From Paramacrobiotus metropolitanus (taxonomy: Eukaryota; Tardigrada; Eutardigrada; Parachela; Macrobiotidae), in assembly GCF_019649055.1 (NCBI RefSeq), contig NW_026570420.1:1-64000 (forward strand): a stretch of DNA of 64,000 bases, given 5' to 3'. The position numbers and the translations under genes are program-made. Positions within the stretch are counted from its first letter, which is position 1. Every line of letters begins with the position of its first letter. The notes beneath the pieces were generated by a model that searched no databases, had not been told where the DNA came from, and was given only the letters and a program-made list of their open reading frames with translations. This document shows positions 1 to 54,275 of this stretch, in pieces.

Positions 1-6
1 TTAATT

Positions 7-969
7 TTACCTCTTAATTTTGACGTGGTAAAAAACATTTCGGAACGCAATGACAGCCGACTGTTCGAAATCCATCAACATGTATTCGGGTCCGACTTCT
101 TCAGATCCACCTTTCTGCATCAGTGCGTCACGGATAATTGTAAAAAAGCGTCGATAAGTGAGCTCACATTTATTTGGCAACAACGCATAAATAAGCGGAG
201 CCGTTGCACCACAAACATCAGCATGCACCGTACAACTGCGTGAAAACAGGCGGGCTGACGCTGAAGGTGCCATCGCTGAGCCAAACATTTGTTCTCTCCA
301 GATAATCGAAGCATTTCGGATCTCCGAACACAATAATCCGATGAATGTCTTCTGCACCAGTATCGGCAATTAGCACGAATTCATTGCGCGTTGTTTCTTT
401 CAGAAAATAACTGCCATCGATATCCGCCAAGTTACACGACCGGTAGGGATACCTTCCGCTTTTCTTTGGCGTCCAATGGTTTTGGCAAGAGCGTTGTAAG
501 AAGACATTTTTACTGCAGCATATACAGGCATCCCGGCGCGAACTTCATCAATAATCTGCCGTGGTCGCTCCACTGTATTGGTTGCACGAACCTTTAACGC
601 CTGTCTAGTTGATTTCGCAGTAACTTTTATGACATCCGGGGCATGAGAATGCTGGCCGCGCTCAACAGCTGCGCCATCGGCATAATATAAACGAGCACTG
701 CAGTGGGTCCTTTCTCGGCAACGCCAGTTCTGACAATTCTCCGTTCTGTCTTCTGCGCGTTTCCAGAATTCGATATACTCATAACCTTTGTAATTTAACA
801 CTTTGTCTTTGCGGTTGAAAAAGAAAACGTTATTTCCGTCATAATTAACTAGGCAGTTAATTATCTGTGCCCTGCTATAAATACGTAGACAAAAAACCTG
901 GAAAATTGTGGTTAATACGAAATTGAAGATTATCCAACGGCTTTTCTGTGCGCATATAAGATGTGGCAC
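7..969 (-). pseudogene. FLYWCH zinc finger / MULE transposase-like gene, two frameshifts
   Basis: Read on the minus strand, the first frame (969 to about 430) carries a FLYWCH-type zinc finger: an aromatic-rich stretch, then W-x-C, a second Cys before ARLYY, and a closing H-x-H in RGQHSHAPD. About 60 residues later the frame ends, and the homology continues in another frame from about 430 to 218 (ADIDGSYF, VWLSDGTFSVSP) and in the original frame from about 240 to 7 (PLIYALLPNK, YMLMDFEQSA). These last blocks are typical of the MULE transposase core, in which LSDGTF and MDFE carry acidic residues. Two single-base shifts, at about 425 and 230, are needed to join it. It is probably a decayed transposon or domesticated-transposon copy, with its C-terminal part missing at the left edge. 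Confidence 0.75.
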
Positions 970-2957
970 TGAGGGTTCGATTTTACGCTTAATCAGCCTT
1001 GCTCATAATATGCATATGACTGAGTAATGATTTCGAGTCGAACTCATTTACATCAGCAATTGTTCATGTGCAGCTCAGTTTCGAATCACATTATACGATG
1101 TACAATCTGTACGTCATTGCAGCGTTGAGCCGTGTGCATTAATGCCAATGGCATAAATACGATGTCTTATAGCAAAGTACTGTAGTTCAGTAAACGGGAG
1201 CAAATCACCCGGTTGGCGAAATGTCCCGTTGGCGAAATGGGATGATACCTTACGACCAGCATCAGCGCCACTAAGATTGCCAGCATCGCCGTCGCTGCCA
1301 CTACCAGAACCATTTCCGTAACTAGAAATTAGTACCACCTTTTTTCAGTTTTCGAAAGCTTTTGAGCTTTTTTCTTGCTTTTAGCTTGCTGAGCTTATTA
1401 TGTTTCTTTGGTTTCTTAAATGTGTAAGCCCTTACTGTAGGTCTCTTAGGTTTTGCCAGAATATTAAAGTCGTTTGTTTTTATGAGCACTGGGGTTTTTT
1501 ATGTTTATTTCTCAACCGATATAACCGGGGCGCATTAGCTGCTCCAAATTTTTTGCAGAAACAAAACTAAGTTTTACCGTTTCCTGCAACTGCCACCTTT
1601 TATCGCTTGCCAGAACACGGGGTGGCAACTGCCACTGCCGGTAGTTGCCAGTGGCAGGTGCCACTGCCACCTTTATCCCCTGCCAATTTCCGGTAGTAAT
1701 ATTAATGCACAATTTCATCTCATGCCAACTCGCACGACTATCGTTTCATACTCAGCGAGCGCGGGAACAATAATTATCATCCGTCAAGGAAACAAGGTAT
1801 CTCCACTTTAAGTTTATAACCGCCGATTCCGGCATTCCTGACCCGCATCCACCGCCTTTAGCCGCTACCCACCGCGTCTCCCCGCAACCCTTTAAGCCGG
1901 CGCCCTTTATACACTTGCAGCGCCATGCACGATCGGCCTACCAGCACTTTTCGTGACCTTTGCCTCCTAACCTTCTTACTGGGTTCTGTTTGCTCATTAC
2001 TGTAGAGTACATAATGTGGAGCACTCAGCAGTGGTATAACGGTCATTGACTAACCCTGCCTCCCTTAGACAATGTTTTAGTCTCGCTGTTGTTAGAGGAA
2101 ATGCGGCCGCTGTCTTGGGTACATTAAACGCGCGATCGATAGTTGGAACTTGGAAGTGACAGTAATGATTTTGGTTGTTTCTTCAATGTGTAAATTCGAA
2201 ATTTTTAATTAATATCTACCAGCGCAGGCTTGTTATTCTGTTAATTGACTAACCTAACGAGCTATTGGAAATATATGCTACGCAGCCTACCCTTATATGA
2301 ATTGTAATCATCTCACATCTGCGCCATGGTTTTGGCCTCATTTCGTTAAGCGGCCTTATCTTTGGTTCTACTCATCCCGTTTCTCTCCTTGGAAATGCAG
2401 CAGAATACTGCAGTAAAAAAAAACTTAGTAGGTCAAATTTCATTCATCCTTCCATTTGTACGAGTAGTTTCTCAAATCTAATCTTGCCGTTCGGATCGAC
2501 GAAGTTGCATAGCCAGGCCCGTTGCGAGGTCCGAGGGACGATGATGACAAACATCTTCATTATGCTTATTAAAATCGTAAGTTCTTTACTTTGATGGATC
2601 CCTTACCATGCTATACAGATACGAGTACTTTTAATTCGTCATTAGGTTATTTCTTGTTACTGTATAGCCTTTAAAGCTGAAGGCCCGACTATGCCCAAAT
2701 CTGTGCCTATTGATTAATTTCAAACATTTTAATGGAAAATTAATAGACCGTAAGACAAAACACACCAATGAAAAAATGCTTGGAACCATAAGAACGGCGG
2801 ATAAAAGAATTAAGCTTGCAATAAAGTTAGAAAAGCCGAGAATGCTTGGTACGCGGCCGCACTTCCGTTCAGCTGCGGTTGGTTCACTTCGTCGCCAAGG
2901 GTATGGCATCGACGCCGTTGATGTTCTCTGTCAGACGGACAGTCGTGCGTCGTCCAC
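970..2957. other. Gene-free stretch
   Basis: I see no credible exon here. Between about 1570 and 1690 there is a short low-complexity patch built from GCCACTGCC and its reverse complement. The open frames are short and unlike any family I know. Confidence 0.5.
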
Positions 2958-4379
2958 CTACGGCGTGTAGTGCACGTACGCCGACTGGACGTACCACTCG
3001 CGACTCTGGACATCGGTGCGCAGCCAACACTCCACTCGCGTCGACTGCGGAGTACTAGCAATGTTCTCGCGCATGCCGACGATCAGTGTGGTGGCGCAGA
3101 AGGTGTCCGGCGCCCGTGCGCCGACGCGTTGCCGATGACGTTGACGCGGCGCAAACCGGGTTTCAGGCCGCCGCCGTAAATGTCGTACAGCATGGGATAG
3201 GGCGCCGAGACGAAATGCCCGTCCACCCTCCAGCTAAACTGCAGTGCGCCGTCCGTCTGACTGCAGTCCACGCGGCCGGTGCACGTCAGAGAAGTTCCCA
3301 GTGGGCGTGGACAGGTTGTGCATGGGCGCCACAAAGGCGTCGCCGGCCGTGCAGCTTCGGCTGCAGAAGGAAGGTGTAGAGTCCGCAAGCTAGGATGATG
3401 CCGACGTTGCCACAGGAACAAAGCAGTCGACCGTCCCGGCAGAGTCACGAGTCACGTTGTGGATGCGGAGGTAGCTGGTGTTCCCGCGGGACGTCTGGTG
3501 GTATCCGTGACCTTTGGGAGGTCCACGGCCGGGCGTCGGCACGGATGGTGTTGTTCTGGTGGCGCCAGAGAACCAGCTGAGCTGAATCCGAATTGGGGTT
3601 CGAACAGACGAATTCTGCCACGCCCCCCAGCGGGACACGGACTATACGGGAGGGTCGGGGTGCGACGTACGGCAGCAGTTTCGCCTCCAGCTCCAGCTCC
3701 GGCAGGGTTATGATGTCGTCGGCCATGTTGGCTTCGGCCCGCTTCACCGCCTCGGCCACACGCTGAACTATGGGAAAAAATGATGGATGTATTATAACAC
3801 GCACGCGCTAATTATTAGTATTAGTCAATTGGCCAACTATGTTAAGGTTAAGTGAATGGACGCAGGACGACGTAGCTTGATAAGTTTTGCTCCAGAATCT
3901 ACTTTATTTTTGCTCCTGCTCCAGAATCTACTTTTTTTAATCTACTCTACTTTTGATTTTTCTTCCGGCTCAAATAAAAAAAAAGTTTATAACTTACGGC
4001 TTGAACAAAGTGTTCGCTGCAGAGATTGACGTAGTGTAGTGCCTCGCGTGGCCTAGCTTAAGTGCTTCCTCACCGAATTTTTACAAACTGAATAAGGAAA
4101 AAACGGTTCAACTAATTTTCGAGTGCTTTATAAAGAGTAAGTTGCGCTTAACATGCTAAAACAAAAGACCGGAAGGAAAGTGATTCGGGAACAAAAAAAC
4201 TGAAGCCTGGCCGCTCAAAGGCATGGCGCCCAATTCACTGAATATACAGTATATATCTGCACGCAGCTGGGCACTTGAACGTCCTTACGGGTTGGGTTCG
4301 GTGGCCCGACTGGACCGTCATCCAAGCCACATTCCGACACGCTGACCAGCATTCCCAGAAAGAGGATGCTGCTCATCAT
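2958..4379 (-). pseudogene. Secreted two-Ig-domain paralogue A (frameshifted)
   Basis: This is a member of the local two-immunoglobulin family. Exon 1 (4379 to 4289) starts MMSSILFLGMLVSVSECG, a signal peptide, and ends at a GTAAGG donor in phase 1. Exon 2 starts at 3767 after CCATAG and resumes LQRVAEAVKRAEANM, matching B and E. The first Ig domain has its Cys (EFVCSN), Trp (LVLWRHQ) and the DSAGTVDC motif; the second has LTCTGRVDCSQ, FSWRVDGHF and FCATTL. The stop is at 2958. At least three single-base shifts break the reading frame: between RHQNNTIRA and the KGHGY segment, just after the second Ig1 cysteine, and at NASA before DTFCATTL. The 5' leader resembles that of B, but A has GTG where B has an upstream ATG. 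It is probably non-functional unless the shifts are assembly errors. Confidence 0.8.
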
Positions 4380-7199
4380 CGTCCCGTGGGATGCGCTTAA
4401 CCGGTTAGGCAACACGGGAAATGGTCAACCGTTGCAAGATGCTAACGGGGGACGGTCTGTGACTCTGTGTAGCGCTGTCCAGAATTATCCTTATTCCTTA
4501 ACACTCGCTAGTAACATCTACTGAAAAAGTATCGGCAGTACATTCGTGTTGTATGTAATACACAAGTACATATCTGATGATATCGGGCATATCACTGTTA
4601 AAAGGCCTACTCGAGTACATCCATCAGTATTATCATCAGCCTAAACTCCAACAGCTAGCATCTGTGAGATGCGCGACTGGCTTCGCTTCGACTGCTGGGG
4701 CAGCCAATTAGTGCGAAACAGCCACATGCATGCTATTAAGTTTGGTCAGCTGAGCAAAGAAAATTCCAGCATCTTACGAACACGACAAAAGAAATGTAAA
4801 TACGAATCGGAATGCTTTACATTAGGAAGTATGCTGTGGTCGGCTGCGCCTAGCTTTAAGTATCAAGTACAGATACAGTACTGCATCAGGGAAGAATAGC
4901 GGCTGGGCCGACGGCCAAATACGTATGTAATAGTACACTATACATGCGATAACAGTCTATATGATTGTGTATCTGAACAGTCTAAAACTAGAGCCTCTGG
5001 TAGGACGAAACAATAGTTGCTACCAGGCAAGTGGTTCTCATTTGCAGCTATAAGAGGAATTAAGTGTGCATGCATGATCGGCCGCGACGCATTATGATAA
5101 GTCGGTCTATGCCTCTGCGGAAGCTGTGTTAGCGCCCGTAAGTGGTCTCTAGTCCTACCAAAATGTTAGCGCCTTGTTGTAAATTCCGCTTGCCTTATCA
5201 CAGCACATGTTACTGTTCTATCGCACATATTCTGTGTTTAGTTACGTGATCTTGTGATATTGTTAAGGGTTTGATTCTACACCATTTTATGAATTTTACT
5301 TATGCTTTCCACTCAATAATGGGTCTGTTCGACTGATCGGATTACAATTGACCATATAACAGCTTGCTCGTCTGGCTTGAATCCATGACCCTCAACAGGC
5401 AAAAGCACTGTATATGTAGATGTAAATTGCGTTTGGCGCAACATCCGGTTGCGGAGTTATTAGGTTACAAAATTCTAAAAGTTTAAATGCATTCCGGTGT
5501 ACCGGAAGTCCCATTACGGACCGATCTCTTCAAATTTTGCACATGCATAAATGCACATAACCATGACGATCGTTCTCACCCCAAACCAGTGTTGGGATGT
5601 TTTCAAATTTTAAAATGAATTTCAAAAGTTTTAAAATCCATTTTAAAATCTGAAAATAATCGGTGAAGTCTGGATCCCTGTAAGAAGGCAGGCCGACAAT
5701 ATCGATAACTTAATGCTGTGGGTTAAAGCCAACATATCCGCTGCAGTATTATGGTTACCAGACGACACTGCACAGATTTGTGTTCATTTTTCAAAAACGT
5801 TTTCTCCGTTGCGAATAAAAGGTTCAGGTAGTGGGAAGCCAGTGCGCAGCCGTTTATTTGTAACCACGGCTCTAGCAAGTATTTCAGGAGTAGTCGCAGC
5901 AAACTCATAAAGCCCGATAACTTTCGATGACTTTCGACTAAGATAAAGATCTACACAAACCCGTCCGGAAACAAGAGCATAACTATACGTGATAAATCAC
6001 CGCATGCCGTGTATATGGCTTAAGCCGATCTCTACGGTGATTTCTCACGTATAGTTGTGCTCTTGTTTCCGGATGGGCTTGTATTATCTGTATGCCCGGC
6101 CTTCCTATAATCTTCAGATCTCGCTAATGAGGAAATTTGAAAAAAAAAACTGACAACACCATTTGCCATTCCTCAAACAACAGTCTCGTGACGCAGTTGT
6201 GCACCACGGTCGATGTGGTTATGGCGTCGGATCTTTTTAAAAGCTTTCAGTTAGAGAAATCCCGCGACTGTCGGGACTGAGGAGCCCGCAAGTAATATTC
6301 ATCTTTTTTTATTACAGTCCGGTCGAAAAGTTTTAGCGCAGAGGTGAAAATAACGGGCAACACTACGAGTAGGCAACGAGCCGACCGTGTGATCCGATCC
6401 CGATATTTTTGCACGATTGCTCCATCTATCGGCGGCATGTTACACCACGGATGTTCAAACATCCTCTGTATCATCACGTAATTAACTGTTTCTGTTGATT
6501 AAGACGCCGTCTGTTTTCTCTGCTTATTGGTCAGCGTTATGCTAAAGTTATCACTGAGCGGTTCATGTATCTTGATCGTGTACAGTAAAGTTTACAAGCC
6601 GTCCGGGTTAACGACAGATTTGACCGGGATGTGGACGCTGTGGAGTGTGCAAACTGCAAACTGCAGATAGCGATAACGATATGTTTAGACTAAGACTCTA
6701 GACGAGACTGCTATTTTTAGACTGTTCATAGGCCATCGTATGTACGCAAGTACATACGTTAAGTAAGCCGGCGACAGTCGACAAAATTTAACAGTACTGC
6801 TGTTATCAACTTCCCAGATATACATACTGTCATTTAATATGGTAATAATATTAGAGCTTGTTCTAATCTATACCGCTCGTCGTACTCATACGATAACATC
6901 AGATTAAATTCTTCTTAAGCACACAGGACTGAACGGTATCAGCATGTGACTGTTTCTGTCCAGCTAATTAATCCTTTGAACATCAACTGAAGCGATGCCG
7001 GTCACGCTGTATCATGCACTTGCTGGCTTTTTAAACTTTTGGCCGATGACAGAATCAGGCAACCGTCTGCTTGACCCGTTAAAATGGCGTTTGCTTGTAC
7101 AAGTTTGAGATAAATATTTCTACCTGCGTTAGCATCCTGAAACGGCAGACCATTAATTTGTGAATGTTGCCAAACCGGATGAACGAATCCCGCAGGACA
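4380..7199. other. Gene-free spacer between Ig paralogues A and B
   Basis: No exon is supported here. The stretch holds the 48-bp-arm inverted repeat listed separately, and the last 60 bases form a leader that is similar upstream of A and B. Confidence 0.5.
5955..6082. repeat. Imperfect inverted repeat, 48-bp arms
   Basis: The left arm (5955 to 6002) and right arm (6035 to 6082) are reverse complements with a few mismatches, separated by 32 bp. Both arms contain the core GGAAACAAGAGCA or its complement. It could be a small foldback element or a transcribed hairpin; no coding sequence is attached. Confidence 0.8.
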
Positions 7200-8099
7200 A
7201 TGAGGAACAGCATCCTCTTACTGGCTATAATGGTCAGCATGTCGGAGTGCGGCACGAATGAAGGGAGTGGCGGCGCAATCGGGCCACCGCACCCGGATAC
7301 TGCAGTTCAGCGTGTCGCCATGGCGGTGCGGCGGGCCGAAGCCAACATGACCGACGGCGTCATCAGCCTGCCTGAGTTGGAGGGACCGCCGTACTTCACA
7401 CCCCGGCCGTCCCGGATCGTCAGAGTCCCGTTGGGGGGCGCGGCGCAGTTTGTCTGTTCGGACCCCAATTCGGCATCGGCGCAGCACATCCTCTGGCAAC
7501 ATCAGGGCGCTTTCGTCGCCGACGACACCGTCACCGCCTCCCCCAAAGGTCACGGCTACCGGCACACGCTCAGCGGCAACACCAGCCATCTCACCATCCA
7601 CAACGTCACCCGCGACTCCGGCGGGACGGTGGTGTGCTTTGTGCCCTGCGGCGGGGGCGGCATATGCGCGTGGGACACCTTCCATCTGCAGCCGGAGCTG
7701 CGCACGGCCGCCGACGCCTTCGTGGCGCCCCTGCGCAACGTGTCCACGCCGTACCGCAACTTCTCCATGACGTGCAGCGGGCGCGTGGACTGCAGCCAGA
7801 CGCATGCCGAGCTGTATTTCATCTGGAAGGTGCAGGGGCATTTCGTCTGGGCGCCCTATCCCATCCTGTTCGACATTACCGGCCGCCGGCCCTACCCCGG
7901 TCTGAGCCACATCCTCGTCAAGAACAACGCGTCGGCGCCCGGAGGGGCGGACACCTTCTGCGCCACCACACTGACCGTGGTCATGCGCGAGAACGATACT
8001 CGTACTCCGCGGTCGGCGCGCGTCGAGTGTTGGCTGCGCCCCGACGTCCACCGCCGCGACTGGTTCGTCCAGTCGGCATACGTTAATTACGCGCCGTAG
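7200..8099 (+). CDS. Secreted two-Ig-domain protein B (intact, single exon)
   Basis: This is the only intact intronless member of the cluster, 299 aa from this ATG. MRNSILLLAIMVSMSECG is a signal peptide. I prefer this start to the in-frame ATG at 7164 because paralogue A has the same leader without an ATG there. Numbering from 7164, Ig1 spans about 82-160 with C98, W111 and C158 in DSGGTVVC. An extra pair, C162 and C168, lies in PCGGGGIC. Ig2 spans about 185-311 with C204, C210, W221, C266 and C289. There are seven N-glycosylation sequons and no membrane segment or obvious GPI tail, so secretion is inferred. A nine-base residue of the ancestral intron is translated as part of the linker (see findings). 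Partner and role are unknown; binding or defence would be guesswork. Confidence 0.85.
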   Translation: MRNSILLLAIMVSMSECGTNEGSGGAIGPPHPDTAVQRVAMAVRRAEANMTDGVISLPELEGPPYFTPRPSRIVRVPLGGAAQFVCSDPNSASAQHILWQHQGAFVADDTVTASPKGHGYRHTLSGNTSHLTIHNVTRDSGGTVVCFVPCGGGGICAWDTFHLQPELRTAADAFVAPLRNVSTPYRNFSMTCSGRVDCSQTHAELYFIWKVQGHFVWAPYPILFDITGRRPYPGLSHILVKNNASAPGGADTFCATTLTVVMRENDTRTPRSARVECWLRPDVHRRDWFVQSAYVNYAP

Positions 8100-8591
8100 C
8101 AGGATGTCGAGTGTCGACTACGACTAGATATCGTCAGACAACTGCAGCAGTGTTCACGCCACACCCACCGGACCAAAAGAAATGACCGGGGTTGTGGCCG
8201 CATATATAGGTGCTCTCCGCTTTTTTTCCAACCATATTTTGTCAGCTTCCAGCTCAGTCCGTCTTGCGATGGATGGTGGCGAATTCTGCGCCTGATTTAT
8301 TTTTCTTCAAGTATTTTACACTAGTAATTAATCAATGAGACTGACATGTTTTTATTAATTTGCACATCTTGTATGAATTGCACCCTCAGCTAGGCTGTCG
8401 TATCGGCATTCGGCAACCATGACGGAATAATAAAATAAAAAAATATTTAAACGACGTTGCTTGAAGCTGAAGCAACCAACTCTGATTGAGCTGCTTCTCC
8501 GTCTTTTTCTTTTGTGGTATCTTCGTATTTGCATGCCTAATCAGCGCCCAAGATAAAGTCAAAAATATTATTTAGACCAGTACTAAAGCGT

Positions 8592-8687
8592 AGTGGATTA
8601 AATCATTTTCATTGACCTCGTAATAGATGCAGACAGCAACAAAAGATCTGAAATCTGGATATTCAGCAGAATGCCAACACAAGGGAC
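8592..8687 (+). repeat. Direct repeat, copy 1
   Basis: This segment shares TGGATTAAATCA, CAGACAGCAA-like and AGCAGAATGCCAACA blocks in the same order with copy 2 at 8857-8947. It is an imperfect, non-coding duplication of about 90 bp between Ig paralogues B and C. Confidence 0.75.
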
Positions 8688-8856
8688 GTAACACTAACCA
8701 GGGCTCGGTCACCACGTCCCCCTTCAGAAAAATCTCATCTTTTGGTTGAAGACAGAATAGGTATGAGGAACACTTGAAAAAATACTTTCATCGGCAATGG
8801 TCCAATGGGCGTGGCCAGACACGAATTTAATGGTTGACTGTTGACATTATTGCGCA

Positions 8857-8947
8857 CTGGATTAAATCACTTTTATTAGCCTTGTACTATGTAGATGAAG
8901 ACAGCAAAGGAATATGTGGATATGTAGCAGAATGCCAACAGAAGAGA
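8857..8947 (+). repeat. Direct repeat, copy 2
   Basis: This is the second copy of the non-coding segment at 8592-8687, about 170 bp downstream in the same orientation and with scattered substitutions and small gaps. Confidence 0.75.
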
Positions 8948-9164
8948 CCTGACAACATACCTCACTAATGTCAAAAACAACCAACTCCGATAGAAGTATG
9001 CATGGTGAAAAACGTACTTCTAACTACCAGGGCGGCACGATATCTTCTCACTGTGTCTGTGTGGTTCATTCAGAGCAGACCTTTCTTTAAACCACTGTGT
9101 CATGGAAGCTCCATGTATGCATTATATAGCACGACACTGTCGAGGTGGTCGCGGCGTACGACGT

Positions 9165-10227
9165 CTACTGCAGCGGCTGCCCGAAATAGACGTTCACTAT
9201 TCGGCTGGACGACCGGCCTCTGCGGACATGGGTGCGGAGATTGCACCCCACACTCGCATTGCGGGGATGGGCCTCCTCCCTCATAATGATGGTCAGCGTG
9301 CTGGCGCAGAAGGGATCAGGAGCTCCCGGCGCTGACACGTTGAAGGTGACGGTGCTGTTGCGCAGACCAGGGATGTCCCCGCTCAGCAGAGCGCGATGAG
9401 GCGTCGCCACGTAGTAGTCGTCGTACCTCCATGCAAAATGCAGTACCGGCGACGTCTGGCTGCAGTCGAAACGGCGGCTGCACGTCACGGAGACGCTGCC
9501 GTTCGGCGAGGACACGCTGTGCATGGCCGGGAAGGCGTCGTCCCAGGCGGTCCGTTCGGGCGGTCCCAGCTGCAGGCGAAAGGTGCGGAAGACGCAAAGG
9601 TCACCGCCGCAAGGCAGCATACACACCACCGGCCCGGCGGAGTCCTGGCGGACGTCGATGAAGAAGGTGCTGATGTTGCGAACGGTCGCGTGTGCTCAGG
9701 CGTGACCGTTGGGGGAATACGTCGTCACAACCCGGCCCAGCGGAACAGGGTGGGTGGTGGTGTTCTGGTGGCGCCAGACGATCCGCTCGGGCGTGGCGGT
9801 GCGGCAGGACAGGGATGCCGTGCTTCCCACCTCGGCACGGACCACATCCGGCGCTGGCTGTGCCGTCGACGTCGGTGCGGTGCTTGGGGCGTCCTCTCGG
9901 GCGGAGAAGTCGATGACGCGGTCAGGAATGTGGCGTGCGGCCGGCTCCACCGCCAGTGAGGCACGCGGGCGCTGTACTGCAGTGCAACACGGACATAATT
10001 AATTTGTAATTATGTCAGCCTACTCGAAGACGAAATATCCTGAACAGTCAAAAATGCTTCCATTTGCACTAGTCTCTACGGCAACGACACTGACAGCCGC
10101 GGGCGACAAAAAGCTGCAGCCCATATTAGAGCTTAGTCCTACCCGGGTGCGGACCGCCTGCAGGACATCCGTTGACGGCGCATCGCGAAACACTGACCAG
10201 CAGTAGCAGTACGAGAAGGCTGTTCAT
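9165..10227 (-). pseudogene. Secreted two-Ig-domain paralogue C (one in-frame stop)
   Basis: Exon 1 (10227 to 10143) encodes MNSLLVLLLLVSVSRC, a clear signal peptide, then a short linker ending PHP at a GTAGGA donor in phase 1. Exon 2 (9976 to 9165) follows an ACTGCAG acceptor. Ig1 has SLSC, IVWRHQ and DSAGPVVC, followed by the extra cysteine pair CGGDLC also seen in B. Ig2 has VTCSRRFDCSQ, FAWRYDDYY and FCASTL. The whole 298-codon frame is open except for one TGA at 9696-9698, in the strand before DSAG. Otherwise it is well preserved, so it is a very young pseudogene, a polymorphic null or a sequence error. It is more diverged than A and B. Confidence 0.8.
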
Positions 10228-12129
10228 TTTCGTCCGACGGGAAAACTGGACAGCAGGTGTCAAAACCCCTAAAATAAAATTTGACAGGGATCAGGGAATG
10301 CCAACGCCTCAATGTCACAGAGGGGTCAACAGCATTTGGCAAAAGGGGAGTTCCACAAAATGGCGGTGGACACCCCCCCATCCCGTATTACGCCCCTGGC
10401 CTTACTCAAGGGACTTGAGAAAAGAGAGGAGTTTTTTAATGGTATTTCAACATTTTTCGCAATGCGGACATGGGCACTCTCTGGATTCCCGTACCCGGGC
10501 AACAGAGAAATGCAAATCTCTGCATCTGCCACATTAAGAACCTTGAAAATGTTCCCTAAACCTCGTGCACAAGTCTGGGCATCGCTTCGCTTCTCAATGA
10601 TAGCCAGCGTCCAGCGGAATAATCTTCGACAGAATATTCCGTCTTTCCCAAACACTTACCTCTCAATATCCTGATCAGACAAGAAACCTAAAAACCCGAA
10701 TTTGTGATGTTTTGCGAGTCAGTCCTTGAACAGGGCAAAATACTACATTCAACAGTACAAATTACAGAATGGGGTTCTGTGGTAATTTTCATTCCGAGGC
10801 ATGTTTTCGCTGCTGACGACGAAAATGGCAGCCTTAATTGATGATGCCACTGCATGGCTGTGATTGGCTGGCCTTTGTCTACCCGCTTTTAGCTTTTAGC
10901 ATCTCGGATTGCAGGTCATGGCGGCCAGTACCAGCATGGCTATGGCGGGCAATTTGTGATGATACTTACAATTTGACTACTGGGATGAGATGTGCAAATT
11001 GTGATGTGCAATTTGACTAAGTCAATTTGCACAGCACCATTTAAACAGTGCAAAACTTCCAAATTTTGCAGTACCATTTTGAAGGATAGCGCACCCTGTT
11101 TGTTGCCGAACTTGTCCGAAATCCAGATTGGTTTGTGTTTGTATGTCATTGGTGCATAATTTGCCATCAGGCTACAGGCTATGAGATGAAATTGCAGCGG
11201 CGCAGCGTGCCTAACAATAAGCCCATGTTTCAATTTTTCCGGCTACAGCCGTGCAACTCCTGTGAGACGGGCTTGCTCTACAGTATGTAGTACTGTACTG
11301 TATGTCTGCTGACTTTTCTTTTTTCACATTATCGCTTTTATCAAATATGACGCTGTGCTTCTGATCCATCATGTCGTCAGTATCAAACAGTTACACATCT
11401 GGATCCTGTCAACCAAACCGCTGCGACGGGCTGTTGCAGAATCAGGATCAATAGAAGAAAACAGCACAAACCGGGTCGGCGCAGGCATAATACAGAGTGT
11501 ACAGATGAGCAGAGAAAGCACACCGCCGGCCGTGCTGCATTGTCAAGTGCCCATGCCTTCGACCAGACGAATCCAACAGCCGCTGGACGCCACTCGGTCA
11601 GGCAGACATATACTTCACTTCATTTGAATTTGTAGACAACAATTTCTCATTGCACACCTAACTGCATTAAGCCAACCGTTGCGCTGACGTCAACACGGGT
11701 GGCGATGGTTGTCGGCCCTGATCTGGTTGGACCATAGGCGCGTGGAGTCGCTAGTCCACTCTGGGAACGTTTGCTCTTGGCCGTGCGAATCAACAACCGC
11801 TGCTTCTGCAACACATGGCGCAAGTCTCATACTGCACGAAAACGAGTTCTCTGCTCGCGCCTTGTCCTATCAAGTTATGCGCACTAGACGTTTCCTTCTT
11901 GCACAATAATTTTGTGGCGACTCGTCAATGATCAGTTCCTGGGACTTCGCGCTCATGAATTTCCATTTGTTTCAGGTTATCGTTTTTGGAACTGTTAGTC
12001 AGTGTGTGATTGATACGTTGGAACAGTTTTCGAATTCAGAAGTAGTTAAGGACTTAAGTTTGCTTTTCACGGAATCGACTTTCCTTAATTTGTTTTTATA
12101 ATTTGAAACACTTGTATAATAAAATGTTA
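10228..12129. other. Gene-free spacer
   Basis: I see no supported exon. Around 10990-11040 there is a short imperfect palindrome built on GTGCAATTTGAC. The longer open frames have no signal peptide and no family resemblance. Confidence 0.45.
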
Positions 12130-12545
12130 CTTATGTTTTCATGGGCAGCTCGTTCATCGTCAAATCCTGAATATACCAGCAGCGTGGTGGCGCAGTAGGG
12201 ATCGGCAGCGCCGCGCTCCGAGACAAGGGCTGTGCTGCAGACCGGGGATGTACGAGCTGCCGTCACAGGTGATGTATGGCGCACTGGCACAGCGCCCTAG
12301 CCTCGAAATCGAATGATGCCTCCGCATGGGCACAGGGAAGATGTCGACGTGGTTGCCGCGGCAGCAGGTTATAATATAGTGGTGACGAAATGAAGGCACA
12401 AGGAAAACAAGTGCTGCACCAATACAACGGCGTCACTGTTGGCTTACGTGGCAGCACGGCTGAGCCGGCAAAGGTCACCGTCAACTCCCAGCCGGACATG
12501 GACCGTGCTGGTCGGTGGCAGCATGCAGATAAACTGCCCGCGGCA
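12130..12545 (-). pseudogene. Remnant D of the two-Ig-domain family
   Basis: Only fragments of the family survive here on the minus strand, in three frames. A piece like the end of Ig1 (ICMLP) lies near 12530. APYIT with PGLQ, matching the Ig2 segment APYP...PGL of A and B, lies near 12260-12300. ERGAADPYCATTLLV, matching GGADTFCATTLTV, lies near 12185. No signal-peptide exon or intact Ig fold can be assembled. Homology rests on order and the CATTL block, so the limits are approximate. Confidence 0.6.
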
Positions 12546-12970
12546 TCCTCCAGCTTACAAGTAAAGCGGGCAGGATAGTAAATAAGACAACGCTCATGCG
12601 ATTATCCGTGACTGTGATCAGCAGCTTTCTGCCGCGATGTTGTTTGTCAAATTCTTGGAAGGATTGGCTTGGTTAACTAGACCCGTTAACGGATAACCGG
12701 TGGTGTCGGTGAAAAACCTCTTTTGTCTGCAGTCTAGAAATAGGCAGATCACGGGGGTGGTGCGCTGCTGCGCCTTCCGATCCGCTATCGAGAGATATTA
12801 TTGTAGGGTGAAGAAAACAAGTGCAGCCGGAATGCTGTCGTCTATTCGGTGGTATTTAAGGATTACTTGTACAGTAAGTAACTGTAAGCCGCTCGCGCAC
12901 GCGCCCCTCGATCAATACATCTTAGATTATAAATGCTGCATCACCCGCAGTCGACGAATTTGTGTTGCAA

Positions 12971-13030
12971 CAAACTTCACAGTGTTCTTGCTATTTGTGC
13001 AGCACATATAACAAGAACACTGAAGTTTGT
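12971..13030. repeat. Near-palindromic hairpin, about 29-bp stem
   Basis: CAAACTTCA...GTGTTCTTG at 12971-12990 pairs with CAAGAACACTGAAGTTTG at 13013-13030, and the inner bases continue the pairing almost to the centre (GTGCAGCAC). A further copy of GTGTTCTTGTTATTTGTGC follows at 13029-13047, and a 17-bp palindrome lies at 13056-13072. Confidence 0.75.
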
Positions 13031-13146
13031 GTTCTTGTTATTTGTGCTGAAATTAGAGCACAAATTGTGCTCTATTTTTCTTATGTTTCAGTTCGCTACA
13101 TCAGCAATGATCAGTATAAGAAAGAACCTGCGCTTGATAAATGCTG

Positions 13147-13230
13147 TGCATTCAGTTGTTTCCATTGGTTTGCTGGGTGCACGGGCGACCGGCGTGCCAC
13201 CAATAAACCAATGGAAACAACTGAATTGCA
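13147..13230. ncRNA. Candidate precursor-type hairpin, 84 nt
   Basis: The arms 13147-13181 and 13195-13230 pair over about 35 positions with one bulge and a few mismatches, leaving a 13-nt loop. The paired core reads TTCAGTTGTTTCCATTGGTT on the 5' arm. Size and shape suit a microRNA precursor, but a small inverted-repeat element would look the same, and nothing shows that it is transcribed. Confidence 0.35.
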
Positions 13231-13360
13231 TCGGATGTTGCATCGGATTAGCCAGATGATCGGATCTGCCAAATGCCTCCCAAGAAGATATTTTTTATCA
13301 GTAGCCGAAATGATAAAGAGAGGAGAAAGAGTGACAACGCAAAGAATTTTCCCAATTTTC

Positions 13361-13418
13361 CCATTATTTGAACTGATATGCTATCATACCAGATACCAGT
13401 TCAAACTTCAAATAGTGG
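13361..13418. repeat. Hairpin, 58 nt
   Basis: CCATTATTTGAACTG at the left pairs with CAGTTCAAA and CAAATAGTGG at the right with a small internal bulge. It is the third hairpin within 450 bp. Confidence 0.5.
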
Positions 13419-15730
13419 CAAAAGTGTATCAATTGAATGCTCGTGTTATACTCGTAGCAAACAAGCGTTCAACTGAAGGTTGTCATTCTTCGGTATGTTA
13501 TAGCTCTAGTGGATGCCACGGTGCACAACAAGAATCAATACGAAGGCGCTGGCAAAAAGGAATTCCGGGCAAGAAGAACTGACGAGGCGCCGTAATTAAG
13601 CCTGCCCGTGCCACGCCACAGTCACTCGTGACCTTTAACGGTAACTCCGGTCAGTTCATAAGTTATGCATGTACAATTATCCCTAATATAGATAGAGCGC
13701 ATTTGCGTCTTATTGAAGGACGTAATTACATTATATCGAGAAATATAAAAATTCCGTTAGCACTTCGGCCTCACCTATCGCGCACAATCCGTCCGTCATG
13801 TGGAACTGCCATCAAGCATGTCGGCTTCCTCACCAAGCCGTTTTCGACTACGGGGTAACCTTTAACATCGTCATCTTGTCCCGACCTCTTGACGATTCCA
13901 CATAGTGTAGTTGCTTTGTGCCTGTACAGGACACCTGTTTCCAGCAATCACAACGTGTAAACTCTAAATGAATCAGACGCTGACGCAGATTGCCAAAGGA
14001 TAATCTTTGTGTGTCAGCGACGACCAGCGGATACGCGGATCTGTTGAGGTGCCAGCGCGACAGTATCGCGCCTCTAATCATCCGCGGTACGTACAACGGA
14101 CCCCACGTTTCTAATGCAGCTAGTTCTCATTTTTATTTATCCGATATTGTTAGAGTCTTTACGATTTTGGTAAAATTATTTCTTTTGTCGTTGTTAAGGC
14201 CTTGAGGAAGTGGATCCGCTGGGCAGGTCAACGCAGTGACCACTGTCAGCTTCCATATTGCAGCATACCTCAACGAGCAATGATACCATACTATCAGTCC
14301 GTGGATAACGAGCCTGTGCAGCTGGAACTGGAAGAGCTGTCTTCCGCTGCCGGATGCACGCCTGCCCGACATTTCGATCATATCCAACACTGGCGCGTGG
14401 CTCTCTACGCTCGCTTCCGGCCAAAATGAACATGCACACCCCGTGCCGATCATTACCAAAAGTCACTACTGAGCGGCAGTTTCATATATAGCGCAGAAGT
14501 CGGCCAGTTATAATTTCCATCACGGAATTAATTGGGATAAAATGAGTAAAGCAACATTTAAATAAATAAATAAATAATTAAAGTAATTATAATTATAACA
14601 AAACGCCCCTTGAAAGTACGTAGTTGTTTATCGTATTTATGAAATAACAGTAGTGTAATACTTAGTAATATGTAATACAGCTAATAATACTAATTATTAG
14701 GAAAATATTTAATAGTTTTATGGATGTCAGTCCCGTCTCACATCAACGGGGACCAGTTATTCTGGTTTAAGCGATGCTTTCCTGTCTGTATTCACACTGA
14801 ATTAAACTGACTGATATTACTTATAGTAAGAAAACCAATGCATTACGTAAATTGTAATGATAGGTAATAAATAATATTTGAATAAATAATACTGGTGCAA
14901 TATACTTTTATTATAAGTCCATGCCAGCAATGCTGCGCATTTCACTGGTACACATATACTTCTACTGTAAATTATTTCAGTGGGAGATTCACCATACACT
15001 GCATACTCTGCGCTGCGGCGTTATTCCCGTTTCTCTTGTCGGCATATCAATCGTACAGGCCTTTCAATAAGACGACTTTACTGCCCTGTAGTTTTAAACT
15101 TCTACACCGTCCGACTATATGGTTGCTTGTGGGGGGATTGAGCACCGAAAAGCAGCGACTCCTCAGATTGTATCCTGCTTGTTCACATCAGCGAACATCC
15201 CCAACGTCGGCCACACTGCACGGTGTTTTTGTATAAGAAATGCCACCGAACATCTCAACGGTACCACGCGTTAGAATTCTGAAGGATTCGAATGCCTAAT
15301 TGTACTACACTCAACAAGAAGACAGCATACGCCAGCGGTTAGCCGGGTATTTAGACAGTCAGCAACAGGCGCAACTGCCGGATTACCAAGCACCTTTTCC
15401 ACGTTGCCTGGCAACCGATTAATTCTGAACAACACACATCCGTACGCCACACTCAATATATAATTAATATTATAATAAGACTTCACCTTGCCATCAATCC
15501 GCTGCAGTAATAACCAATGTTGCAGAACATCATCGCGGACGTCGCGGGATTCCTCCAAAGGTCGCAAGCGCACGAAATGCCGTTTCACCACTCAAGTACG
15601 CGCTGCCGGCGCACTGCAGTTCCTCACCGCCGGACGAAACATGTCCGGTGCAGCGTTATCTCTGGGTGCATGTCGGCTGGCATTTCTGACAGCTGACGCT
15701 GCCGGAATCATTTGCGCGTCATCTCGCGCA
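13419..15730. other. Gene-free spacer before Ig paralogue E
   Basis: No exon is supported. AT-rich DNA at 14550-14700 includes short AAAT and ATT repeats. Confidence 0.45.
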
Positions 15731-16723
15731 ATGGCCATCATAAACGTTGACTCCGTACATTACGTTTATAGCATTTTCTTGCTGGCTGTGATTCTTGGAC
15801 ACGTTGGACAAAGCTGCCCGATCACACCACCGACACCACGTAAGTTGTCCTTGGTGCCCTTTTTTTGGCCGACAGAGCATTGAACGTTTCTTTGGGTCTC
15901 CCCTCGATGCATTGCAGTGCAGCGTGCCGCCAAGGCAGTTCAGCAAGCCGAAGCCCACATGACCGACAACGTTATCATCCTGCCGGCCTTCGAGAACGAG
16001 ACTACCGGGGAGGCGCCACCGGCCAACACCGTGCGCGTCCCGTTGGGAGACACGGCGAGCCTTTCCTGCAACGCCGAACCGGTTCAACGGATCGTCTGGC
16101 GCCACCACAACGCCACCATCCAAGGCGTCGATGTGGTGATATACTCCACGAAAGGTCACTACTACCGACTGACGTCCAGCGCTAGCACCAGCTCTCTCTT
16201 GATCCACAACGTCACCCGCGAGGCGGCCGGGACGGTAGAGTGTCTTCTGACGAAAGGTGACCTTTTAGCGGAGACCACCAGTGGTGACCTTTCCGTCCTC
16301 CGGCAGTTCGAGCTAGAGCCGAAACTGCGCCCTCAAGACGTCTTCGTTGCGCCCATGCGCAACGTGTCCACGCCGCTGTGGAGCTTCTCCATGACGTGCA
16401 CCGGCCGCCTGGACTGCAGCCGGGCGGGTACCGCCGCGCACTTTATCTGGAAGTACGACGGGCATTTCGTAGCGTCGCCGTATCACTACCTCAACACAAT
16501 CGCCGGTAATTTGCGTCCTACCGGTTTGCAACTCGGCACCATCACCGCTGCGCTGTCGCTGCCCGGAGCGGCCGATCCCGTGTGCTACACCACGCTGACC
16601 ATTACGATGGACGAGAACACCAATCATCGGCCGGCGCGGGTGGACTGCTGGATCCGCACCGATGTGCGCCGTCACGAGTGGTTTGTGCAGTCGGCATACG
16701 TCCATTTCACGCAGTCAATTTAG
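15731..16723 (+). CDS. Secreted two-Ig-domain protein E (two exons, intact)
   Basis: The coding sequence joins 15731-15839 and 15918-16723 (304 aa) across a 78-bp intron with GTAAGT donor and TTGCAG acceptor, phase 1, the same position as in A and C. The N-terminus has a hydrophobic signal (VYSIFLLAVILGHVGQSC). After the intron, LQRAAKAVQQAEAHMTD matches the family. Ig1 has SLSC, IVWRHH and EAAGTVEC; Ig2 has MTCTGRLDCSR, FIWKYDGHF and VCYTTLTI. E lacks the extra cysteine pair that follows Ig1 in B and C. In its place is a longer loop, TKGDLLAETTSGDLSV, that looks built by a short duplication. No membrane anchor is visible. Function is unknown; secretion is inferred. Confidence 0.87.
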
Positions 16724-19700
16724 ACGACCGGTTGTTGTTGCGAATTTTTGAATTTTTGATTATTGCGATTAATGTACGGTAAGCTTTGGTTTTCTTGAAT
16801 AGACTTTTCGTTGTATGGCTAGGTTGTGCATTACGCTCTACACGTTATTTGATGTCGTTGTTATTGTTTGCGTTTTTATTGTCTCATTAAGATTTGAGTT
16901 AAAATATAAGAAAGCTGGGCATGGGGTCAGTTGCACCCCGATTCGCTAACGCGTAAACTCTCGCATATTCCGCTTACATTTCTTACCAAACCGAAATAAG
17001 CTTTAGGATCATCAGATGATCTACTATCAACATTATCCACAGGTTGCCTTGAGCGGCAGACAAAACATTTTTAGCAGTATGACGAGAAGCTTAACGTATA
17101 TCCACTGTTAAATACCGGCTACCAGATACGAAATTGCCACATTTCCAGTATCGATCGACTTCGTTTAATTTTCCATTTAAACCACCTTTCCAGTTTTACC
17201 CCGCATTTCCCGATAATTTTATTCAGCGAACGAGATACCTGAGCGTGGTTTTAGCTGAGTTCTGGTAGCGGATATTCGATTTAAATTAAGAGCTATTAAT
17301 TACGTGCAACCACTCTCCAAGAGGCCAGTAATGTTTGGCGTGACGTAAAGTGCCATAAAGAAATAAAATACTACTGGTTAAGCACATTATAAAATAACAG
17401 TACATATGTAAAGTCAGCAATATGTGCACCCATAGATATGATTAATTTCTGGCGTGCAGCGCCGGCATACACTGCACCACACCGCCGGAAGTTGTCTGTG
17501 TAACGAGCACGTTCTCCGTGTAGCAATTTGCCCGCTCTCCGCTGGGACACACAGTCACACAGTACATCGATATGTTAACAGCGTGTACGTTGCTGTTGCC
17601 GCTCAACTCTTCTCTCATCGCATATACGCATATACAGTAGTTCCAGCGAGCGCTACATGCGCTTGAGTTAGGGCATCTTCTTGCTGCTGCGCCAGCAGAT
17701 ATCCAGCTATACCAGCCACTTCCGACCGGCTATTTCGGGATGGCCAGCGGAATGTAAATTAATTGCCTTTTATATTGCACTAAATCATTGCGCGCCCCCG
17801 CTCATCTATACGCGCAGGCAAATGCCGGTATTTAAATGTTCTGCGTCAAACGCTGCCTGTATACTGAACACCGGATGTTTCCGCGTAAGATCATCAGCGC
17901 GCTTCTTCCATTGGCATCCGACGCGGCAACACAACCGATCGCGATCTGGCAATGCGCCGATATTTCTCCGCGAGTTTATTTTCTCAAGAATAACGCGCTG
18001 TTAATCTTTCCTCCGGACACGTATGCACCATTAATAACGCTCACTCTTCCCGGCACTAAAATACTGTAATCCGATGCTACACTGATGTATTTATTCTCTG
18101 ATTTTTTCTGGATTTATTTCCCTTGCATCCTGTGAAGATAATTAGGTAAGTCTGCGCATAAAACGTGCTTTAGTAAACGCGCTAAACCTCGACGCTGTTG
18201 CGCGCGGTGTAAAAAAATACAACGGCTGTAGCGTCGCCGGCGGCGTTGATGTGTTCCCAAGGCAGTCGTCAAGTGTGCGACATTAGCCGTTCGCGCGCGG
18301 CAACGGCCCATTCCGCCGCGCGACAACACGCTGATTATCCGCACTTTTCGCGCCTGTCCAACGGCATTACTGTCTCCCTCGCTGATCCCATCGATCGGGG
18401 AAACGTTCCCCATCAGCGTCCCGAATTCCCCAAACGCCGCTTAACGCGCACCGTCGAGTCGCGCAATCGCGCCGGCGTCTGATGAGAAAACCCTATCGAG
18501 CGTTGCGATCGTGAAAAATTCCAAAGGTCACCGTCCCTTTCCCGGGTTTGTACGTCAGCGAACAGCCGTTCCCCGCCGGAAGTCCCACCAGGCGAACCCG
18601 GGATGATTACGGGAAGAGCCGGGGTCGGGGATTTTTTGGTGTACGCGCGCGCACCGCGTATCGCGTTGATCCGGTTGTTATTGAGAGAGAGAGAGGGAGA
18701 GAGCGAGAGAATAGAGTCTCCACGCTCACCTGATTTCCTGTTGGTCTCTTCCGCTCCGGCTCTTTTCAGGCCCGGGCTCGCAGCAACGGCCGCGTAACAA
18801 GGCATTGTGCCTGCGCCGGCATGCCGCGCTCCATTAGCGCAATTATTCCCCTTACCTGTGTGCAGCTTAGACAAAGTGCCGCGGCGCTGTATAATCTGTA
18901 CAGCGCTGTGCGGCCGATGTATCGATCGGTGTTGTTCGATTAAGGATTGCCGACGGCCGGCGCGCTGATCCGATCGGATGACGGCCGATATACCGACATT
19001 ATATTATCGCCTCCATTCACCGTCAATCCGCTCTACCGTCAGCACGACCCCGACCTTGAATCGACGCTAATTCCCCATTGATGCGAAGCCCTGTGTCGGT
19101 AAACACGGCTCTCGTCTCTCTCACTTGTCCCGTTTTTTCTCCTTCTATGCGCAAACACGCATGCCTTCAGTACGTTCGCTGCGTGTCGAGATTTTAATTA
19201 TACATATAACACTTGACCTATATTGTCCACGCCAGCAGTTGTGCCGCTGACCGTTGCCCTGACCTGGCAGTTGTTGCGGGATAAACAGCGTCCGATGTTT
19301 ATATACCAATGTGATGTAAGTACCGAATGATTACTGTCTGCGCAGCTGTGCGACGCTGTTGCATAACGCGGCTCGGCCTTCACTATATATGCATCAAGGT
19401 CAAACTGCGGAAACCGCGTTTCCGCTGCCGCATCCCAAAAAATTCCCGGAATACTTGGCGGGATGAGCAGAGCATCCAGAAAATTGCGAGACGAGTTGAA
19501 AAATCGGCTTGTAAATTTAATGAAAAATATACGGGTTTTTGGAAAATTTAATTATGAGGGATTTTTTTTAATTCATTGTGTGTGATATTTTGATGGCTTG
19601 ATTAGCCAGCGACCTTAGCAAGGTAGGCATTGTCGTCCGTGTAATTGTATCCACGGGAACCCGGTGATCGATGACAGCGCGCTGGATGGCGCGCGCGCAC

Positions 19701-39894: not shown

Positions 39895-41114
39895 GTTCGC
39901 TAGGTCGTACCGTTTACACGGATAACTGTGGTAATTCTGTAGCTAAACCGTGCGGTGCGGAATACAAAAAATATGCAGTGATTATTTGAGATTTAAATAA
40001 TTTTTTTAATTAATTCAATAGTTTCAGTTTTATACCAAAATTTAGTTATTGTGGATGTAGCAGTTAAAACGTTAAGCACGGCAATAAGCAGCAATCTTAA
40101 CATGATAAATTTACAGCGGCTGCATGACAATGTTTGGTTACATTTGGACAATCAACTGGATACATTTTGCAGTGTGCCATCAAGATATCGTCCGGCTAAT
40201 CAGCAGCATATCGCTGCACGATACAATAGGGGAAGTGTAGTCTTGTCGGTTATCAGTGCTCGCCACTTGACAGACACACTGCGGCACAGTGCAGCGCGAT
40301 AATGAAGTTGGTGTGCGAATGTATGAAAACAAAAGCCAACCGTCTGACTCATTACACAGCGCCCTGATTAATTTTGTTATTTACCTGTCCGTGTTGTTGG
40401 CGTGTTCAGTGTACTACTGTACATGTATGTACTACTGTACTAATGTACGCATGGCACGACTGGCCACAGGTCAGCTGACCAATCGGCTAACGGCTGCAAC
40501 CGGCGCTCGCGCAGGTTATAGAATGCGACGTAACATTGGCATTTCGGAGGACTAAGGAGGGGCTGATTTTCAGGCAGGATAAAAAGACAGTTTTTGTTGA
40601 GAAAAGAAGCAACACTTTGGCAAATGCTGCTTGTGTTCAGGAAACGTTCTGTATTGGTAAGAGATTGGACGAAGTGTACTATGTGCTAAAATGATGTGAC
40701 GCTTAATTTTGTTTCTATCCTATGTTACTCCAGTAACCCAATAAAGTACCCTTTCTTTGGCAAACTTTTTGGCAAACTCAAAAATAAAAAAAAACCCACA
40801 AAATAAATTTTAATACCATCCATTTAAACCTATATCAAAGCCGCTGGCTGTTTTTCCACACAACAAAATTTAATCATCATTTTTGACGATACGATAGCTG
40901 ATGAATTATCGGGTGAAGCACGCGCATCCTTGTATCGAACGTTTTTAAAATAAACCGGTTTATTTTAAAATACAATTCTGCGCCTCTTGAATAGCGGATT
41001 TAGCGCTTGTTTATCTGTTCACTGCACAGAACAAATCACCATTGGAGCCTGGAGCGTTGGGGTTAACTGAAAACACCTTTGGCTTGCGGACGCCAAAGGA
41101 TAGACAGTAGTCGT
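39895..41114. other. Intergenic, no gene seen
   Basis: No exon is supported between the ATP-grasp start codon and the rGC2 stop codon. The ATP-grasp promoter and rGC2 3' sequence must lie here. Confidence 0.45.
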
Positions 41115-53676: not shown

Positions 53677-53704
53677 CTTTATTTTAAAGTATTGGGTTTT
53701 GTAG

Positions 53705-54060: not shown

Positions 54061-54275
54061 GTGGAGTACACACGACCGCACTGTACGGCAGACCGATGCA
54101 GTGAATTTACCAGTTATTTAATATTGTAACATCATGTTATTTGTTACATCTCCTTAAAAAGATTCCGGCATTCAAATTCTGGAGCTAAATTATATGCCGT
54201 GCGCAAAATAATAAGCACAAAAAAAATACGTTATCGTGTTGCTATCGATAAAATTCGGCGCCCGGTTCCATGGAC

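Follow-up and report, generated by a model that had tools for sequence, protein, structure and literature searches.

Amphioxus VCBPs are secreted proteins with two V-type immunoglobulin (Ig) domains and a chitin-binding domain, and the Alr proteins of Hydractinia are membrane proteins. The latter form an invertebrate Ig family acting in recognition, with 41 members named, and the FREPs and VIgLs of molluscs are Ig-containing multigene families that carry a fibrinogen or lectin domain, FREPs being variable immune recognition proteins (PMC11999971). In C. elegans there are eight zig genes, four of which are implicated in nervous system maintenance (PMC3400552), and the tardigrade Tar-fer/FeMP proteins consist of a ferritin-like enzyme domain and one Ig-like domain (PMC11616004). 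According to a published survey (PMC7056985), most Drosophila immune genes are undetected in tardigrades, with Relish undetected in any tardigrade and homologues of PGRP-SA/SD and GNBP1/3 in any sample; PGRP homologues were found in all eutardigrades but one, so that recognition is not wholly missing in these animals.

The window analyzed here comprises the first 64,000 nucleotides of contig NW_026570420.1 of Paramacrobiotus metropolitanus TYO (assembly GCF_019649055.1). It contains copies of a two-Ig gene family for which no description was found in the portions of the open-licence literature searched, and which an earlier note on this DNA had presented as a local cluster of five paralogues in birth-and-death turnover.

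Organization of the locus

Searching the window by tblastn with 24 family exon-2 proteins identifies four copies at an E value of 1e-3 (Table 1). Four of the five proposed paralogues, A, B, C and E, are thus clearly present, whereas D may be a weak remnant: its two pieces (12405–12232 and 12224–12174, both on the minus strand) are collinear, and its best E value is 4.4e-5, compared with 1.3e-4 for the top-scoring one among 50 shuffles. Of the features that the copies had been said to share, the leader, the linker QR..A.A...AE, both Ig units and the DC(S) motif can all be recognized. The common phase-1 intron holds for the relatives with a leader exon but not for copy B, from which it is absent with 9 bp left; since these residual bases end like the acceptor sites of the relatives, we read copy B as an imperfect intron loss that kept nine bases in the reading frame. 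The signal peptide of B probably starts with the Met at 7200. In the tree, A and B together, C, and E represent three separate subclades, which rules out one recent tandem burst as the origin of the cluster.

Table 1. Positions of the two-Ig copies and their parts in the window
Copy	Feature	Positions	Strand	Remarks
A	tblastn match	2940-3768	-	
A	Exon 2: linker, Ig domain 1, Ig domain 2	2958..3767	-	Frameshifted here, intact in contig C169
A	Exon 1, signal peptide, then ~0.5 kb phase-1 intron	4289..4380	-	Leader and GTAAGG donor same in C169
B	tblastn match	7299-8096	+	
B	One unbroken ORF, 311 aa, leader and two Ig domains	7164..8099	+	
B	9 in-frame bases ending CTGCAG	7297..7305	+	At the relatives' phase-1 intron position
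C	tblastn match	9168-9983	-	
C	Exon 2	9165..9976	-	In-frame TGA at 9696-9698, degenerate C-terminal signature
C	Exon 1, signal peptide	10143..10227	-	Donor GTAGGA, weaker than relatives'
D	Decayed domain 2 remnant (weak)	12165..12405	-	
E	tblastn match	15914-16720	+	
E	Exon 1, signal peptide	15731..15839	+	
E	Phase-1 intron, GTAAGT...TTGCAG, 78 bp	15840..15917	+	
E	Exon 2: linker, Ig domain 1, Ig domain 2	15918..16723	+	Domain 1 without the extra Cys pair

The start of the window (C200, positions 1–19203) overlaps the end of another contig, C169, where copy A is complete: an open gene that includes both leader and intron. As deletion errors accumulate toward the ends of both overlapping contigs, the frameshifts attributed to copy A are a contig-end artefact, true of the window contig only, and A as a pseudogene is ruled out. 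The single codon said to stop copy C, a TGA occupying a nearly invariant Tyr column, is present in the window contig but differs between the two contigs. On the other hand, the conserved C-terminal Trp/Gln residues are absent from copy C in both contigs, and the DNA there is alike in the two except for one substitution; judging from these residues, copy C may well be decaying.

Gene architecture and fold

In the branch of the family represented in the window, a leader exon and a phase-1 intron precede one exon, which codes for two V-like Ig domains after a short linker. The protein terminates with CWxRxDxxxxEWxVQ, no additional domain follows the second Ig, and the exon-2 frames of 24 members stop within about 18 residues past strand G. 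Residues C51, W64, C111 and C157, W174, C242, corresponding to the canonical B-strand Cys, C-strand Trp and F-strand Cys, are invariant in all 24 aligned members; some distant family members lack one or both domain-2 Cys. An extra Cys pair in domain 1 is complete in 20 members, missing in three and reduced to a single residue in one, so that in 23 of 24 the two residues are either both present or both absent. A leader search under a strict rule, run on 24 of the 30 loci from the B-query matches, gave candidates for 16, comprising 12 convincing ones, copy C (L030) with its weaker donor, and three that are weak or false (L009, L023, L026); none was obtained under this rule for the other eight. 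N-glycosylation sequons occur on average 4.95 times per protein against 1.29 in shuffles (20 members), about a fourfold excess. Together with the leaders, this agrees with the earlier prediction of secreted, heavily glycosylated proteins. Moreover, in each of 16 regions with weak or divergent matches, selected by hand and not at random, there is a two-Ig ORF, whole or in part, L055 being limited to a part.

Structures were modelled with AlphaFold2 from window-only alignments and then compared with the PDB. Confidence in the models is moderate (mean pLDDT 66 and 64); they support an Ig beta-sandwich in both domains, and with it a place in the immunoglobulin superfamily: domain 1 matches a TCR V domain (Z 11.5, rmsd 2.1 across 92 residues) and domain 2, modelled alone, CD96 D1 (Z 9.5, rmsd 2.9 across 104 residues), with best Foldseek TM values for the latter of 0.69 on the target and 0.56 on the query. 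The structural neighbours are generic (antibody, TCR and cell-adhesion Ig) and distinguish no family, absences among them being uninformative. Pfam Ig_3 is found at E values up to 0.1 in 20 of 24 members; against its gathering score of 30, copy E reaches 37.6 and copy B 26.9, the best stretches lying in domain 1 and none in domain 2. Among the 60 of 77 matches listed in the PDB profile search, the best stretches all end at or before profile position 180 and leave the C-terminal half of domain 2 unaligned.

Size and turnover of the family

Family places were counted by pooling coordinates from match listings, that of the B query in its entirety and four others minus presumed repeats and weak tail rows, two of these four having further matches beyond those listed; a second round entered one listing in full (60 matches) and, from another, the 15 of 119 matches judged possibly new, and places at most 700 bp apart were merged. 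The count gives at least 333 places, distributed over 107 of 533 contigs. It includes fragments and is a minimum for places; some alleles may be counted twice in it, and the number of genes may be lower. Approximately 265 places are 450 bp or longer (269 of 328 in the first tally, minus four overlap duplicates); if each were a gene, they would make up about 1% of the gene set of P. metropolitanus, for which 24,903 genes are predicted (PMC8277472). The cluster in the window is therefore one corner of a very large family and not merely local. A neighbour within 20 kb exists for 176 of the 333 places, against a random mean of 25, the subclades are intermingled, and the B query encounters internal stops in 23 of 128 matches, some of these being contig-end errors. 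Birth-and-death turnover thus loses part of the evidence first given for it, as the frameshifts of A stem from a contig end and the stop of C is uncertain, and draws support from the genome-wide clustering, the intermingled subclades and the internal stops.

Selection was assessed on exons by NG86, which does not model base bias, with dS appearing to plateau. In nine disjoint near pairs, chosen by us among the pairs listed, dN/dS over whole exons is 0.23–0.60, indicating constraint; positive selection on whole exons is seen in none of the nine, all being below 1. More distant pairs often give 0.6–0.9 at dS 0.4–0.7, and other pairs, notably with L024 or L026, 0.95–1.25 at dS 0.37–0.57, values that NG86 cannot separate from understated dS; these were set aside because of the base bias and the levelling off of dS. 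Within domain 1, pN/pS is 0.77 in the loops against 0.35 in the remainder, and the regions exceeding 1 include one strand of domain 2 besides loops.

Possible function and alternatives

The reading that we favour, at a little short of even chances, is that the family may constitute a repertoire, encoded in the germline, of soluble and glycosylated proteins for recognition and perhaps defence. The proteins would be released into body-cavity, gut or cuticle fluids and serve there as a set of binding molecules. Varied ligands would be bound by domain 1, with its disulphide-stapled FG hairpin and faster-changing loops, and domain 2, in which the extra disulphide is fixed and the EW..Q end conserved, would act as the constant portion, pairing with a partner or with itself. 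Diversity would arise from gene duplication and divergence, with no somatic change, and the likeliest use would be the recognition of microbes or other non-self. We infer the defence role, and gamete, feeding or neural families can have a similar appearance; one scan of viral contigs with one peptide pattern gave eight matches, none of which was confirmed as a viral relative. A more far-reaching proposal, which we consider rather doubtful, is that these soluble two-V-domain proteins, some hundreds in number, would be a humoral antibody-like system in which domain 1 varies and binds the ligand while domain 2 is constant and couples to effectors. Gene turnover would renew a diversity stored in the genome, in a lineage where much of the recognition and NF-kB apparatus of insects is undetected. 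A large soluble Ig repertoire would be a concrete candidate for microbe recognition in tardigrades, the immunity of which is hardly known.

Gonads commonly express families of secreted proteins that duplicate rapidly, and the two-Ig proteins could instead be secreted as components of sperm, seminal fluid or the egg coat and have been diversified by gamete competition in a gonochoristic species. Indeed, 1,724 transcripts are at least tenfold higher in P. metropolitanus males, leading to 325 enriched bins on 29 scaffolds (PMC11191345); however, Ig genes are unmentioned in the male-bias sections of that paper, the word "immunoglobulin" occurs 0 times in its main text, and the two-Ig family is dispersed across 107 contigs. 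We regard reproductive recognition as unlikely. Small secreted two-Ig adhesion tuners, expanded in this lineage for neural or matrix maintenance, would resemble the ZIG proteins, which are likewise small, secreted and two-Ig, and the profile matches of domain 1 include titin, LRIG, Robo, contactin and Dpr, but eight known ZIG genes (PMC3400552) stand against 333 places. Intermingled arrays also seem unlike wiring genes, and such a maintenance role appears improbable. Diversified secretions released onto prey or food would fit a secreted, multicopy family with several conserved Cys pairs; Ig pairs are, however, unusual in feeding or salivary families, which leaves a salivary role with a slight chance.

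It could finally be argued that the extra copies are haplotigs or misassemblies of a few genes. The assembly was run so as to retain heterozygous variation (PMC8277472), there is one real overlap (the end of C169 with the start of C200), and copies on C322 and C214 are 95% and 93% identical to a copy on C8. Against this, the known overlap accounts for just 4 of 337 places, each of the other 23 members in the alignment is at least 34% different from B, and most listed places are less than 70% identical to the query, although some may still be mutual alleles. As a general explanation, an assembly illusion is not tenable and has, in our estimation, hardly any chance of being right; the family is not single-copy, and in the main its copies are no product of assembly. 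Both findings that the earlier note had named as refuting its reading, a missing Ig fold and a single-copy protein multiplied by misassembly, are contradicted by these results and by the models of the two domains.

Comparison with known systems

The two V-type Ig domains are shared with the amphioxus VCBPs, whereas the chitin-binding domain is found in VCBPs only, having no Pfam match in 24 members. The Hydractinia Alr family resembles the present one as an invertebrate Ig family; unlike Alr, the tardigrade two-Ig proteins have no segment after domain 2 able to span a membrane. The FREPs and VIgLs are comparable as Ig-containing multigene families, but their fibrinogen or lectin domain (PMC11999971) has no counterpart in the tardigrade protein, which ends after the second Ig, and the Pfam scan of 24 members gave neither a fibrinogen nor a C-type lectin domain. 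The Tar-fer/FeMP proteins are likewise tardigrade proteins with an Ig-like domain, and kinship with them is ruled out by their different architecture (PMC11616004) and by the absence of a ferritin-like domain from our Pfam scans, including that of the 24 members. With the C. elegans ZIG proteins (PMC3400552) the family shares small size, two Ig domains and secretion, the last predicted from leaders in the tardigrade; compared by description, it is set apart from them by a C-terminal signature of its own and by numbering at least 333 places. Under the repertoire reading, it would be a non-vertebrate example of a large soluble repertoire made of Ig domains alone.

Family size and spread

Searches of the genome (169,799,020 bases in 533 contigs) with member proteins of this predicted secreted two-Ig family, in whose window branch a leader exon and a phase-1 intron precede one exon encoding a linker and two Ig domains, yielded 128 matches for copy B, 23 of them with internal stops, and 146, 138, 176 and 151 for four more-divergent members. 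Merging of the hand-entered match coordinates gives at least 328 places, spread over 104 contigs; 269 of these places span at least 450 bp. Two further queries, which gave 60 and 119 matches, contribute just six and three additional places, for a total of at least 337 on 107 contigs, or at least 333 once four duplicates on contig C169 are removed, which contradicts a widespread single-copy protein, the counter-reading raised in the earlier note. The gene number may be lower, since allelic copies may be among the places counted. A neighbour lies within 20 kb of 176 of the 333 places; in 200 trials of random placement, disregarding contig ends, this number averaged 25 and never exceeded 45.

Each of 16 regions that we chose by hand among weak or divergent matches was seen on reading to contain a two-Ig open frame belonging to the family, whole or in part; L055 has only a piece and L054 leaves the frame close to its end. 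The C-terminal signature of domain 2, CWxRxDxxxxEWxVQ, is matched as a regular expression by 31 of 36 exon proteins, the remaining five being off by one position, and persists in distant members. In one branch (L040, L041 and L042, on C1, C56 and C65) domain 1 is seemingly split by an added intron, the linker and the signature being retained. In the distant members L051, L047 (C1) and L057 (C336), one canonical cysteine of domain 2 has been lost, or both have, with the HEW signature kept. Copies on C322 and C214 are 95% and 93% identical to a copy on C8, possibly as haplotigs or through recent segmental duplication.

Copies in the window and their gene structure

Five paralogues had been claimed in the window, which belongs to contig C200. 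A, B, C and E are its sole matches at E 1e-3 (tblastn with 24 family exon-2 proteins); D is seen at relaxed settings only, with a score slightly above the best of 50 shuffles. Seventeen columns of the 24-member alignment are invariant; these include each Ig domain's Cys/Trp/Cys core, and domain 2 has an additional invariant pair of Cys.

Features discussed in the text
Feature	Position	Strand	Remark
Copy A	2958-3767 (exon 2)	-	
Copy B	7164-8099	+	
Nine in-frame bases in B	7297-7305		relatives' intron position
Copy C	9165-9976 (exon 2)	-	
Copy D	12165-12405	-	
Copy E	15918-16723 (exon 2)	+	
Contig overlap	1-19203		C169:199484-218709
Open frame, Pfam D-ala D-ala ligase C-terminus	38568-39233, perhaps with 39469-39942	-	62.9 bits, cut-off 24
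Four frames	24937-25455, 41228-41677, 47005-47754, 53602-54126		listed as inward rectifier K channel, guanylate cyclase, NHL repeats, extracellular link domain
L024	C200:145442-146209		
L051	C16:286100-288000		
Similar copies	C8:546-567k, C214:33-62k		

The phase-1 intron position said to be shared is occupied in E (78 bp) but not in B, a single open frame of 311 residues including the leader. The nine bases left there end in CTGCAG, like the acceptor sites of relatives, and B has therefore probably lost its intron imperfectly, by genomic deletion and not through mRNA. A scan of 24 loci for a leader with a phase-1 donor gave 12 convincing cases, three weak or false candidates and, under the rule applied, eight loci with none; C has a candidate leader with a weaker donor. 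On reading, L024 seems to carry three or four tandem repeats of the 5' portion of exon 2, splice acceptor included.

The four frames beside the cluster are ordinary genes. The ligase-like frame, judged by its Pfam match, is possibly a horizontally acquired ATP-grasp gene in an animal genome.

Pseudogenes and contig ends

The beginning of the window corresponds to the extreme end of C169 at 97.3-98.6% identity (18,942 matches, 92 substitutions, 128 indels). The indels divide into 98 deletions in C169, 84 of them within window kb 7-19, toward the C169 end, and 30 in the window, 25 of them within kb 0-6, the end of C200. This complementary pattern is that expected of unpolished long-read contig ends; the assembly was made from nanopore R9.4 reads by Canu, run with options described as retaining heterozygous variation (PMC8277472). 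Substitutions are less evenly spread (20 in kb 6, 20 in kb 9) and could reflect either real variation or the mispolishing of one paralogue with another. Contig ends that dovetail with complementary deletions are a general trap for pseudogene calls in this assembly.

The frameshifted state attributed to A does not hold, its five indels being limited to the window contig and the gene being complete and open in C169. B and E, called intact, are indeed open in the window and gapped in C169, and D is a remnant decayed in both contigs. The single stop assigned to C, a TGA on a nearly invariant Tyr column, is present in the window, but the contigs differ at that site. Decay of C is nevertheless plausible, because its degenerate C-terminus lacks the conserved signature Trp and Gln and the DNA there is the same in both contigs except for one substitution.

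Predicted structure, selection and phylogeny

The AlphaFold2 model of B, built with alignment rows from the window only, has a mean pLDDT of 66 (67-87 in the domain-1 blocks), and its domain 1 superposes on T-cell receptor V domains (Z 11.5, rmsd 2.1 over 92 residues). Domain 2 of E, modelled alone (pLDDT 64), resembles CD96 D1 (Z 9.5, rmsd 2.9 over 104 residues) and LRIG3 (TM 0.69 on target). With moderate confidence, both domains are thus predicted to be Ig folds, as proposed, and V-like by their best neighbours. Domain 1 is the only one in which Pfam recognizes an Ig, of generic type (B, E); Ig_3 is matched by 20 of 24 members at E <=0.1. In domain 1 the FG hairpin is bracketed by a further pair of Cys. 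Both residues are present in 20 of 24 members, neither in three (including E) and a single one in another, so that the pair is mostly kept or lost together, as expected of a disulphide. Predicted N-glycosylation sites are in line with the heavy glycosylation suggested earlier, with a mean of 4.95 sequons in 20 members vs. 1.29 in shuffles.

NG86 dN/dS in nine disjoint near pairs (0.60, 0.44, 0.38, 0.43, 0.58, 0.40, 0.31, 0.38, 0.23) stays below 1 and points to constraint, relaxed. Among more-distant pairs, ratios of 0.6-0.9 are common (dS 0.4-0.7), rising to 0.95-1.25 in comparisons that involve L024 or L026 (dS 0.37-0.57); these high ratios may reflect faster change or understated dS. Over six pooled pairs, with loop limits drawn from the predicted model, pN/pS in domain 1 is 0.77 in the named loops vs. 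0.35 in the rest, and in domain 2 0.52 vs. 0.48; all parts of both domains together give 0.51. Three regions exceed 1 on few synonymous sites, one of them in domain 1 (the C-to-D loops, 1.10) and two in domain 2 (strand E, 1.26, and the EF turn, 1.29); the excess is therefore not limited to domain-1 loops.

In the tree of 26 proteins, A and B pair together (support 98/96), joined by C200:95k; E groups with C169:105k, C224:39k and C60:899k (96/89). C falls with C200:129k and 145k at a support of 93/89, which is short of the starred level. The C169/C200 array is therefore a mix of subclades.

Possible function and comparison with known proteins

Leaders, two Ig domains, sequons, constraint and a large clustered family are established features. 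The family would be a putative soluble recognition repertoire, with domain 1 as the candidate ligand-binding part and domain 2 as the presumptive constant part. A possible defence role draws on a survey which detected PGRP-SA/SD and GNBP1/3 homologues in no sample and Relish in no tardigrade (PMC7056985), and in whose text the word 'immunoglobulin' has 0 occurrences. The same survey reports PGRP homologues in eutardigrades, Richtersius excepted (PMC7056985), and this presence shifts the odds one way, the near-1 ratios of some pairs the other. The main rival is a possible reproductive role; in this species, strongly male-biased genes in general are reported to be enriched in bins on 29 scaffolds (PMC11191345).

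Our literature search of open-licence papers found no published description of the family. Ig superfamily expansion as such is already known; new are the scale of the family, its Ig-only soluble architecture and the animal. The ZIG proteins, as described in PMC3400552, are closest to it in architecture.
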